From: Methanomassiliicoccaceae archaeon DOK
GTDB taxonomy: Archaea; Thermoplasmatota; Thermoplasmata; Methanomassiliicoccales; Methanomethylophilaceae
Length of the DNA: 64,000 nucleotides
Assembly: GCA_009911715.1 (NCBI GenBank)
Contig: CP047880.1
Coordinates: forward strand, 496,001-560,000
Direction: 5' to 3'
A model generated the notes under the pieces. It was not told the DNA's origin. It did not search any database and saw only the letters and a list, made by a program, of their open reading frames with translations. A program made the translations under genes and the position numbers. Below, in pieces: positions 39,534 through 43,717 of this stretch (position 1 is the stretch's first letter; each line of letters starts with the position of its first letter).

Positions 39534-41840
39534 TCATTCGGAAGGTGCCGCCGCCTTCTCGGCATCGGTCTTCTCGGTCTTCTTGGATCTCGAGGACTTC
39601 TTCCTTCCGGGGCAGTCCGGGTTGATGCACTCCTCGGTGTTCCCGAGGTTGATCATAGGCGCCTTGCAGATGGTGCACTGCCTTCCGGCGTACGATATGC
39701 TCCCTCTGGGTCTGAGCGGGTACGTCTGCGTGCATGCGGGCCATTCGGAGCATCCTGCGAACCTCTTCCCGGCCTTGGAGTACATTATCCTGAGCCTGCC
39801 CTTCTCGCAGGTGGGGCAGGGGCCGAGGTCGTTCTTCTCGGTGTTGCTGGGACACTTGGGGTCGATGCACTGCAGGGACGGAGGGTTCCCCTTCCTGATG
39901 ATCCTTAGCTGCGGGAGGCCGCACACGGGGCAAGTGGTCTCCACCGTCTGTATGAGCGCCCCTCTGGGCACTGGGTACGCGCGCTTGCAGTCCGGGTACC
40001 CGTCGCATCCGATGAAGTTGCCGTTCTTGGACCTCTTGATGGTCATGTTGTTCCCGCAGGACGGGCATATGCCTATGTGCTGCTGTGAACGGAGGGCGGC
40101 CTTGATCTCCGACCCTATCTCCTCGGAATCGTCAGAGATCTTCTGGGCGACGTCGTGGAGCATGTCCTGGGACTCGGTTACGACCGAGTCCAGCGTGCGC
40201 TCGCCGTCCATTATCTTCAGCATGTCGGATTCGAGCTTCGCCGTCATGTCGGGCTCGGTGATGCCCCCTCCGTGGTTCTCCAGAGCCTTCGTCAGCGCTA
40301 TGCCGCTGGGAGTGGGGATCATGTAGTTGCCCTGGACGTAGTTCCTGGAGTACAGCTTGCCGATGATGTCGTGCCTGGTGGACTTGGTCCCCAGCTGCAG
40401 CCTGTCCATCTCCTGGATGAGCGAACCCTGGTTATACCTGTAGGGGGGCTTGGTCTCGGACTCGACGATGCCCATGGACCTTATGTCGACGGTGTCGCCG
40501 ACCTTCAGTGCGGGTAGTTTGCTGTCGTTGGACTTGATGTACTTGCCGTAGTACTTCTTCCAGCCCTTCTTCTTCAGGACGTAGCCCTCGGCGTTGAAGT
40601 CCTCCCCTCCGACATCGATGACGCAGTGGGTGACCTCGGATTCGGCGTTGGGGGCGACGGTCGCCAAGAACCTCCTGACTATGAGCTCGTAGAGCTTCCA
40701 CTTGTCCCCCTTCATCTTGTCCGCCGAGGCGCCGGCAGTGGGGTAGATCGGAGGGTGGTCCGTGGTCCTCCTCTTGCCCTTGGAGGGGATGATCTTCTCC
40801 TGTGCCAGGATCTCCTCCGCCTCGGACTTGAATTCTCCGTCCTTGAGCTTCTCGAGCACCGACCTGAGGTTGAGCGTCTTGGGGTACTCGGTGTTCTCGG
40901 TACGCGGATATGAGATGTAACCTCCTGTGTACAGGTCCTCCGCCAGCTTCATGGCGGTGGTCGGCGGGATGCCGATCTTGTTGGCCTCCACCTGCATCTG
41001 GGTCGTGTCGAAGGGTGCCGGCCTGTACTCCTCCTTGGGAGTGACCTCGAAGGATTTCACGGTGCCCTCCTTGTAATCAGCCACGACCGCCAGTATCGCC
41101 TCGGCCTCGTCCTTGTCCCAGAACGGGTTGGAGGCGTGGGACCCTTTGAATGCGAGTATGCCGAACTTCCCCACAAGCTCCCAGTACGGTTTGGGCACGA
41201 AGCTCTCGATCTCCTCGTGCCTGTCCACCAGCAGCTTGAGAGTGGGGCTCTGGACCCTCCCCACGGACATGAAGTTCTTCCCGACCTGACCCGAGGAGAG
41301 CGAGATCAGCCTCGTGAGGACGGCGCCCCATGCGAGGTCGATGATCTGCCTGGCCTCAGCGGCGTCGGCAAGCTTCTTGTCGGGGTCGGTCAGGTTGCTG
41401 AACGCGTTCTCGACCTCGCCCTTGGTCAGGGCGCTGAACTTGGCCCTGCGGACGATGCCCATGTCGGCGCCCGCCTCGCGGACGGTCTCCATTCCGATGA
41501 GCTCTCCCTCCCTGTCGTAGTCGGTGGCGATGATGATCTCGTCAGCCTTCGTCGCGAGGTCCTTGATCATGTTGAGGATGGACTTCACCCTCACGGTCTT
41601 GACCTGGGGGGCGTACACCAGATCCACGGGGGATGTGCTGCTCCAGTCGTTGTACTCCTTCGGGTAGTCCAGTTCGATGATGTGTCCCCTGAGGCTCACG
41701 ACGTCGTAGTCGTCACCTCCGGACTCGAATGATATCACCGTCACACCGCCTGATGTGGAGGAATGGGACTTTCCGTCCGACAGAATGGTGGAGATCCTCC
41801 TAGCGGCGTTGGCCTTCTCGGTGATAATCAGCTTTCTCAT
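39534..41840 (-). CDS. topA: DNA topoisomerase I (type IA)
   Basis: The 768-residue enzyme relaxes negative supercoils. TOPRIM residues are visible (ITEKANAARRIS; ATDYDREGELIG), the active-site tyrosine lies in YISYPRTENTEYP, and MSVGRVQSPTLKLLVDR follows the TOPRIM half. The last 180 residues carry four zinc-finger-like modules (CPSCGNNM, CPVCGLPQL, CPTCEKGRL, CTICKAPM). It has its own promoter (TTAAATAA on the minus strand at about 41863-41870), placing the transcript start at or near the ATG, separate from the RNAs upstream. Confidence 0.95.
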   Translation of the reverse strand: MRKLIITEKANAARRISTILSDGKSHSSTSGGVTVISFESGGDDYDVVSLRGHIIELDYPKEYNDWSSTSPVDLVYAPQVKTVRVKSILNMIKDLATKADEIIIATDYDREGELIGMETVREAGADMGIVRRAKFSALTKGEVENAFSNLTDPDKKLADAAEARQIIDLAWGAVLTRLISLSSGQVGKNFMSVGRVQSPTLKLLVDRHEEIESFVPKPYWELVGKFGILAFKGSHASNPFWDKDEAEAILAVVADYKEGTVKSFEVTPKEEYRPAPFDTTQMQVEANKIGIPPTTAMKLAEDLYTGGYISYPRTENTEYPKTLNLRSVLEKLKDGEFKSEAEEILAQEKIIPSKGKRRTTDHPPIYPTAGASADKMKGDKWKLYELIVRRFLATVAPNAESEVTHCVIDVGGEDFNAEGYVLKKKGWKKYYGKYIKSNDSKLPALKVGDTVDIRSMGIVESETKPPYRYNQGSLIQEMDRLQLGTKSTRHDIIGKLYSRNYVQGNYMIPTPSGIALTKALENHGGGITEPDMTAKLESDMLKIMDGERTLDSVVTESQDMLHDVAQKISDDSEEIGSEIKAALRSQQHIGICPSCGNNMTIKRSKNGNFIGCDGYPDCKRAYPVPRGALIQTVETTCPVCGLPQLRIIRKGNPPSLQCIDPKCPSNTEKNDLGPCPTCEKGRLRIMYSKAGKRFAGCSEWPACTQTYPLRPRGSISYAGRQCTICKAPMINLGNTEECINPDCPGRKKSSRSKKTEKTDAEKAAAPSE

Positions 41841-41924
41841 CGAACGTCTGGACGTCCTCGGACTTATTTAATTATAATTGATAGGGGACAGCGGTCCGCC
41901 CCTTGTCGTTTTGAGGCGGAGGTC

Positions 41925-42108
41925 GCCGGTCGGGACCGAGAAACCGACCGGCAGGAGAAGAGTAAATGTCAGTTACTTTCCCAGAGGACGTTTAACGTCC
42001 GCATCTCGATTTCGTTCGAAACGGAGAGTCTCGTCCACTTGTGGGTGGGTGTACCCTGGCAACAACGCCCCTGTTCAAGTCTCCCCATGTTCGGTTCGGG
42101 TGCGTATA
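41925..42108 (-). ncRNA. Putative structured RNA, copy 1
   Basis: This is the topA-proximal member of a duplicated element repeating every 400 bases. On the minus strand a TATA box (ATTATAAATA, about 42126-42136) predicts a start near 42108. Conserved blocks follow: an ACCCGAACCGA leader, a GGC/GCC hairpin, a CCAC/GTGG hairpin, GGACG-TTAAA-CGTCC, AGTAA/TTACT, and a terminal 9-base stem GCCGGTCGG/CCGACCGGC (41925-41952). Stems keep their pairing where the two copies differ. No reading frame is conserved. I match it to no known RNA class. Confidence 0.6.
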
Positions 42109-42323
42109 TGACATCGACGAGGTTTTATTTATAATATTGTTTTGACAATCAATAGCTATAATACAGATTCAATTTCCGAATGGGAAAGCAGACCTACAAT
42201 CATCTCGTGTATCGGTACCTTTCATCCACATTTTCGGAGGCAGGATGGTTTATCTTGGGTATTCTGGGAATCAACGTGACCGCACGGTGCCTCCTTTAAG
42301 AAGCATAGCGGAGAAGTGGGATG
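42109..42323. other. Spacer between the two RNA copies
   Basis: No gene is seen. The part next to copy 1 contains its promoter, and the sequence CTATtGAtTGTC upstream of that TATA box matches the equivalent position of copy 2 (CTATcGAaTGTC). The promoter was therefore duplicated along with the RNA. Confidence 0.45.
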
Positions 42324-42517
42324 GCCGGCCGGGCAACGAGATCCCGACCGGCAGGAGAAGAGTAAATGAATCTTACTTTCCTCCGGAGGACGTTTAACGT
42401 CCGGATCTCGGTCACAATCCTCGGGATTGAGATCGAGATCTCCGTCCAGTGATGGACGGACAAACCCTGGCCGCAAGGCCCCGGGCCTGTATGGAGCAGG
42501 CTCGGTTCGGGTATGTA
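42324..42517 (-). ncRNA. Putative structured RNA, copy 2
   Basis: This second copy lies 400 bases from copy 1. The minus-strand promoter has a BRE-like CGAAACGA and TTTAAATA (about 42537-42544), predicting a start near 42517. Shared with copy 1 are CAGGAGAAGAGTAAATG and GAGGACGTTTAACGTCC (both + strand). Between them TTACT/AGTAA pairing is kept. The CCGTCCA/TGGACGG hairpin replaces the shorter hairpin of copy 1. The terminal stem (42324-42352, 10 pairs with one G-U) is kept although several bases differ. This pattern is expected of selected RNA structure. Confidence 0.6.
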
Positions 42518-42704
42518 TGTTGGAACGTCGAGGAAGTATTTAAAGAATCGTTTCGACATTCGATAGCGTTAGTGCAATCTATATTGCCATATTCAAAGCA
42601 GGAACCATCCTTCTCGATTTTAGCAACAGGCATAATCTCGGTGTTATGCGACGCCTAGGGTCTAAGACGATATTGGAATATACATCCAATACATACATGC
42701 CCGC

Positions 42705-43289
42705 ATGGAGCTTGCCGCGGAGCGTCATGATGTCGTATGTCCTATGAACGAGTCCGATGTCATGGAGTATATTCTGTAGAAGGAAGGCGTCCTGCGCGTG
42801 GAGCCGCTGGATCGGCGGACCGTGGGACGTCTGGTCGAGGCAGAGGAGTCCATCACACGGGTCTCTGGGGGGATGAGGCTGGAGAACAGGGGCATGACGG
42901 ACTGTGCCGGGATGGAACGGAACTTCGTGATGTTCTGCGACGCATCGTTCCCCAGGCCGGACGAGGTGACGATGGAGATGGTGGACGATAGGGGCGTCGT
43001 GATCGGTCATGACGTGCCGCCGTGCATGAGGCAGGATTTCGCCGCTCGCGACGACATCATCTGGATGGCTGACGGGTTCGTGTTGTATCCGAGGCGTGTG
43101 GGCGAACACGACGTCCGGATGGTCATGCTCTCCAGCCGCTTCGATGTCCCGGAGCCTCTGGTCTCGAGGATCTTCTATCCGTCGCTGACCACCGCCCGCA
43201 TGCTGAATGGGATGTTCGGCGTCGAGTGCGAGGGGCTGGCCTCCGTGGTGATCGGTGTGAACGGTCTTGATGCGGTTCAGTTCCTGTGA
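42705..43289 (+). CDS. Unknown protein with in-frame TAG (possible pyrrolysine)
   Basis: From ATG 42705 the frame reads 24 sense codons, TAG at 42777-42779, then 169 more codons to TGA. Sequence on both sides of the TAG reads like protein (ESDVMEYIL before, KEGVLRVEPLDRRT after). A TATA-like GGAATATAC at 42674-42682 places the transcript start at ATG 42705. GTG 42798 is an alternative start that avoids the TAG. The 194-codon product is soluble, acidic and unrecognised. Its 3' end overlaps nikR by 13 bases. If TAG is read as pyrrolysine it would be Pyl25; otherwise this is a shorter gene or a pseudogene. Confidence 0.55.
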
Positions 43290-43717
43290 CCGATGTGGTG
43301 GAGGTTCCCTGACGAGGGGGCGGCCATAGTCAGCCTTCCCCTGAGGACGCCCTTGACGGACGTGATCTCGTTGGCGAACTTCTTGAGGTCCCCGAGTCTG
43401 CCCTCGCAGATCAGGATCTCCATGCATTTGTCGTGGTCCAGATGGATGTGGACGGACGTGTTGACCAGTGACTGGTGGTCGTGCTGCATGTCCGTAAGCT
43501 TGTCCCCGACGGAGCTCATGGTGTGGTCGTAGACCATGACCACGGTGCCGACCATCCATTCGTCCTCGTTCTTCCACTCGTTCTCGGCCAGGGAGTCGCG
43601 CACGAGGTCGCGTATCGCCTCGGATCTGCTTACATAGCCCTTCTTGGAAATCGATTCGTCGAATGCCTTCAGGAGCTCCGGTTCCAGGGATACTCCTATG
43701 CGTGTCACTCCGTCCAT
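43277..43717 (-). CDS. nikR: Nickel-responsive regulator NikR
   Basis: The 146-residue protein has an N-terminal ribbon-helix-helix (VTRIGVSLEPELLKAFDESI...YVSRSEAIRDLVRD) and a C-terminal ACT-like nickel domain with HDHQSLVNTSVHIHLDHDKCMEIL, including the His/His/Cys ligands of the square-planar Ni site. NikR represses nickel uptake when Ni is sufficient. Nickel is needed for hydrogenases and F430, in line with the hyp genes in this window. An inverted repeat upstream may be its own operator. Confidence 0.95.
   Translation of the reverse strand: MDGVTRIGVSLEPELLKAFDESISKKGYVSRSEAIRDLVRDSLAENEWKNEDEWMVGTVVMVYDHTMSSVGDKLTDMQHDHQSLVNTSVHIHLDHDKCMEILICEGRLGDLKKFANEITSVKGVLRGRLTMAAPSSGNLHHIGHRN

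Follow-up and report, generated by a model that had tools for sequence, protein, structure and literature searches.

We identified, in Methanomassiliicoccaceae archaeon DOK and its relatives, a family of small repeated elements that combine conserved RNA folds, a short open reading frame (ORF) and two promoter-like sequences, and whose site near topA is empty in related genomes. We favor, with somewhat better than even confidence, the explanation that each element is an antisense-silenced peptide gene organized like bacterial type I toxin-antitoxin loci, present in several copies and encoding a peptide that is probably growth-inhibiting. The elements were examined in a window of 64,000 nucleotides (contig CP047880.1, positions 496,001 to 560,000) from the host genome, a single contig of 1.89 Mb; coordinates below are positions in this window. 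The original prediction had described a pair of structured minus-strand RNAs between 41925 and 42517. The tandem pair was confirmed, with copies A and B lying 400-411 nt apart and sharing the quoted sequence blocks, as was the minus-strand TATA box at an equal distance in each. The feature proved larger than this interval, with a plus-strand promoter from 42269 and a minus-strand promoter reaching about 42577. The accompanying claim that no reading frame is conserved did not hold, as a conserved frame lies on the plus strand of copy B; it was missed when A was compared with B because copy A is frameshifted and truncated (MSVTFPEDV*). Copy A (41925-42112, plus strand) is a diverged element that has lost the plus promoter and whose broken ORF begins at an ATG at 41966.

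Copies A and B lie between topA (39534-41840, minus strand) and a plus-strand gene near 42700-43289, which is followed by a nikR homologue. Seven related genomes lack, at the corresponding site, the block that holds both copies (41872-42666), and only a short gap separates topA from the downstream gene there; the block may have been gained here or lost in the relatives. A role as topA leader, already considered unlikely in the original prediction, was dropped, as these relatives possess topA without the element. The NikR-type regulator gene near the topA locus (43277-43717, with RHH and NikR_C domains) aligns downstream of topA in the relatives examined.

In copy B, the ORF MNLTFLRRTFNVRISVTILGIEIEISVQ (42366-42452, plus strand) spans 28 codons and follows a Shine-Dalgarno (SD) site, AGGAG (42353-42357, plus strand), at a spacing of 8 nt. 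ORF-bearing relatives carry AGGAG, AGGAGG or GGGAGG a few nucleotides before the start, mostly at 6-9 nt. The frame is intact in eight of the 11 close elements, with no indel inside it, although indels are present outside it. Pairwise differences at the three codon positions (271, 139 and 305, respectively) are lowest at the second, where they are about halved. The ratio dN/dS is mostly below 1 in the ORF frame (about 0.3-0.8) and higher in the other two frames taken together, though frame 1 is still below 1 in many pairs. We also scattered the observed changes at random among equivalent bases and compared the resulting peptide likeness. Among close elements this gave P values of 0.003-0.29, lowest for the more divergent pairs (most of them 0.003-0.08), though some close pairs fell short of significance. 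For divergent elements whose start is intact the P values were 0.001-0.05, and among those without one not all pairs were more alike than random. Substitutions in the ORF are conservative. The comparisons thus point to moderate selection at the peptide level, with helix and peptide constraints on the same codons being hard to separate.

The predicted peptides are 28-30 residues long, alternate hydrophobic with polar residues and have GRAVY values of 0.6-1.3. Judged by residue pattern, they lack the hydrophobic transmembrane helix typical of most type I toxins; one account describes such a hydrophobic alpha-helical segment for the membrane-associated toxins (PMC8309996). Searches of the peptide against Pfam and PADLOC gave no match, PHROGs returned a single insignificant one (E 0.15), and a peptide-profile search of viral contigs found no relative. 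Five divergent elements (in G100, G072, G064 and two in G073) have an intact ATG or GTG start. At loci L083, L084, L087, L091 and L061 the start position is instead occupied by AAG, AGG or TGA; a conserved ATC follows immediately and the rest of the frame is open, as would fit lost starts or non-standard initiation. AUC occupies this second-codon position in G013, G012, one G075 element and one G073 element. Initiation at AUC was rejected as the main reading, because sister elements carry ATG or GTG directly before that codon, and the AUC-only cases look like lost starts.

Both strands carry promoter-like sequences. On the plus strand of copy B, AATCAACGTGACCGCACGGTGCC (42269-42291) is followed by a TATA-like CTTTAAG (42294-42300), together spanning 42269-42300. 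The genome contains exactly eight instances of the upstream element AATCAACGTGACCGCACGGTRCC, before copy B, before three further copies (L003, L004 and L005) and before four protein genes. In three of these four genes the start codon lies 29-34 nt past the TATA, and in the fourth (L012) it lies further away and is less clear. Since the element is common to protein genes, it provides good evidence that plus-strand transcription of the copies begins shortly ahead of the first helix. The plus TATA lies 49-56 nt before the SD in all close copies except A and a dead copy. Besides the window site (42269-42300), occurrences of the upstream element were noted on the host contig (G000 C1) at 469281, 713626, 1043920 and 1484009, and it is also found in relatives of the genus (L017-L019, L022). 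Two of the four protein genes are pilin-like or secreted. Taken with the RNA copies, these genes look like an uncharacterized regulon.

The minus-strand promoter of copy B (42537-42577) consists of a TATA box, TTTAAATA (42544-42537), and a conserved upstream element, whose upstream block occurs only at the four B-type copies. Its counterpart in copy A (42103-42135, minus strand) has a TATA box at about 42135-42124 and a predicted start at about 42108. For copy B the predicted antisense RNA covers 42320-42517 on the minus strand; its start (about 42514-42517) is placed by the TATA position, and its 3' end is uncertain. In each of the 18 non-dead elements measured, the stop hairpin is followed at 86-92 nt by the minus-strand TATA; this count includes the ortholog in G012 and stands apart from the four last-found elements, one of which (G072) has by eye a weak box only. 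Eight elements with a broken ORF keep this TATA (G012 not counted again), which suggests that the putative antitoxin outlives the putative toxin. In the 3' flank of the G013 and G012 elements (L083, L084, L087), the antisense TATA is flanked by the inverted halves CTGCATTC and GAATGCAG, an arrangement reminiscent of an operator overlapping this promoter.

A common feature of these elements is a fold that runs through the whole predicted mRNA. Helix 1 (42324-42352, plus strand) is a 5' hairpin at the predicted mRNA start, with 91.8% of alignment cells paired and eight of nine pairs changed on both sides across 18 relatives. It is followed by the helix 2 hairpin (42354-42384, plus strand; double changes at 10 of 11 pairs in the 18-member alignment), in which the SD pairs with coding sequence and the start codon sits in the loop; as modelled, this would provide the occlusion of SD and start by which type I toxin mRNAs are recognized. 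Helices 3 and 4 (42388-42440, plus strand) lie within the ORF and covary in the alignments. Helix 5 (42441-42460, plus strand; 95.8% paired, six of eight pairs changed on both sides) holds the stop codon UGA in a GUGA loop, and most elements have GUGA or GUAA there with the stop inside. Helix 6 (42464-42512, plus strand) is a three-way junction with a GCAA loop and a weak outer helix (57% paired). In an alignment made without reference to structure, 27 of the 67 pairs show changes on both sides, a number reached in none of 500 shuffles. In the 18-member alignment, which was fitted to the covariance model and therefore leans towards structure, 54 of 67 do so, against 15-28 when the partners are slid. 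The stems are thus kept in related genomes and covary far beyond chance, as had been predicted, though the statement that every stem is kept was too strong for copy A, where helix 4 has lost length to a 9-nt deletion and helix 6 pairs weakly. Copy A keeps helix 5 with CUUG in place of the stop-bearing GUGA loop, and the RNA structure can therefore persist without the peptide.

Searches by sequence and with a covariance model brought the family to 22 distinct elements in 10 genomes, plus one ortholog, all in the family Methanomethylophilaceae. Eleven are of a close type (five in the host genome, three in G075 and one each in G077, G074 and G079) and 11 of a divergent type (two in G075, four in G073, two in G013, with the ortholog in G012, and one each in G100, G072 and G064). 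The three further copies in the host genome are 86-93% identical to copy B over about 330 bp, and these and copy B each have their own plus-strand promoter, 5' hairpin and SD site. The 28-codon ORF is intact in copy B and in two of the three, L005 being frameshifted like copy A. Presence is patchy, with elements in eight of 31 genomes of the genus and in three genomes from two other genera of the family; by eye, the L004 element is absent beside the corresponding pilin-like gene of the close relative G076. A class-wide search of 400 genomes under stricter filters found nothing beyond the genus members already known. Thirteen of the 22 elements keep the ORF and nine have no usable one, and a dead copy (G075 C6, L043) has lost the SD, the start and both TATA boxes. 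Related elements also stand upstream of leuS in two genomes (L061, 2075-2620, in G073, and L015 in G077), those in G073 forming a tandem pair that resembles A and B. The element matched nothing in the plasmid and phage collections, and neither the window, the region at lax thresholds nor the relatives matched an Rfam family (gathering and lax thresholds), as had been anticipated. The description as a new RNA family therefore stands insofar as the elements are structured, multi-copy, absent from Rfam and each equipped with a minus-strand promoter, but they are not simply minus-strand non-coding small RNAs; in most relatives a plus-strand promoter faces the minus-strand one, together with an SD-preceded ORF conserved at the peptide level.

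We hypothesize that the full element comprises two convergent, overlapping transcripts. The plus transcript would be an mRNA of about 190 nt with extensive folding. It would begin with the 5' hairpin, and a further hairpin, whose stem closes the SD and whose loop holds the start codon, would keep translation low; the amphipathic ORF of 28-30 residues would run through two more hairpins to a stop in a GNRA-type loop. The minus transcript, best read as the antisense partner of this mRNA, would start about 60 nt past the stop and be antisense to all of it, including the ribosome-binding site. Pairing of the two would silence the mRNA, so that the peptide would be made only when antisense RNA is short. 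From this arrangement, we infer that both strands are transcribed, that the mRNA is translated and can be silenced, and that the peptide is toxic. It is the combination of convergent promoters, a closed ribosome-binding site, a tiny peptide (28-30 codons with an SD, within the usual bound of fewer than 60 residues, and intact in 13/22), multi-copy and patchy occurrence, and an ORF lost more often than the antisense promoter that argues for a type I-like organization.

All of this anatomy would fit equally well a non-toxic small peptide with its level under antisense control, such as a micropeptide of the membrane or one used in signalling, and the plus promoter shared with two secreted or pilin-like genes suggests co-regulation with surface proteins. 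We nevertheless consider a harmless product unlikely, as an ORF that is often lost while the antisense promoter stays, patchiness and multiple copies are more typical of toxin-antitoxin loci.

That the minus RNA is instead a free-standing structured small RNA acting elsewhere, with an incidental plus-strand ORF, was the original view. The minus promoter is the most constant part of the element and survives in ORF-less copies, and both strands fold; the minus-strand RNAs fold better than their shuffles in copy B (z -6.3) and, to a lesser degree, in copy A (z -2.5). A G-U pair on one strand corresponds to an A-C mismatch on the other, so the balance of the two tells which strand folds. Helices 4 and 5 together show 30 G-U against 5 A-C in a sequence-only hairpin test with symmetric scoring, and internal stem positions of the fitted alignment show 32 against 9; helices 1 and 2 show no G-U excess in the symmetric test. 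The GNRA-type loops GUGA, GUAA and GCAA also lie on the plus strand. Together, wobbles and loops favor a fold maintained mainly in plus-strand RNA, the overall balance leaning that way. With a conserved plus promoter, an SD and an in-frame ORF of 28-30 codons under amino-acid constraint as well, an independent minus-strand RNA appears improbable.

A structured non-coding RNA on the plus strand, with the ORF a by-product of palindromic stems, would account for the extreme conservation of the stems and for the different stable loop on helix 5 of the ORF-less copy A. It is very improbable given an ORF free of indels in eight diverged copies, its second-position constraint, and SD, start and stop at fixed places with both GTG and ATG starts. 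Finally, a non-autonomous, MITE-like mobile element with palindromes for transposition, as dispersed copies and the empty site might suggest, can be practically dismissed, since no inverted repeat pairs of the kind that terminate MITE or IS elements lie within 41500-43000 around copies A and B, no transposase was seen by eye among the flanking ORFs, and flanks and ends vary between subfamilies at fixed promoter spacing.

Returning to an antisense-silenced peptide gene, the closest known layout is that of the tandem Ibs/Sib loci of E. coli (sibA/ibsA, sibB/ibsB), which are likewise repeated; there each small RNA gene measures about 140-190 nt and fully encloses a tiny ORF read from the other strand. 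The elements described here differ in their archaeal promoters, in a peptide of 28-30 rather than 18-19 residues that is amphipathic rather than a hydrophobic helix, with no sequence relation seen, and in a fold conserved in the mRNA strand. AapA/IsoA of Helicobacter pylori similarly pairs a small peptide mRNA with SD-sequestering hairpins and an opposite-strand antisense RNA, features that are predicted here and, for AapA3/IsoA3, reported as established (SD sequestration and an essential antisense RNA; PMC6733600); the host here is archaeal and there is no known homology. MsoT1/MsoA1 of Microcystis aeruginosa was also found by computation, as a type I system outside the classical phyla (PMC12390103), though that system is bacterial and was tested in E. 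coli. The same 2025 paper on this cyanobacterial locus names only bacterial phyla as sources of type I systems (PMC12390103), and the titles and abstracts listed by full-text searches of open-licence papers contained no archaeal case.

There is an even chance that these elements are the first type I toxin-antitoxin family known from Archaea, one whose peptide would be of a new amphipathic kind, possibly a beta-hairpin, and whose mRNA would be folded along its entire length. RNase III is generally absent from Archaea, so a toxic mRNA silenced by antisense pairing would need another route there for handling the duplex. More generally, when a structured "non-coding" RNA is known from two copies, an ORF on its opposite strand can go unnoticed. 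The covariance model offers a means of finding more members, and as the elements are short, occur in several copies and differ in presence between close relatives, the idea is directly testable.
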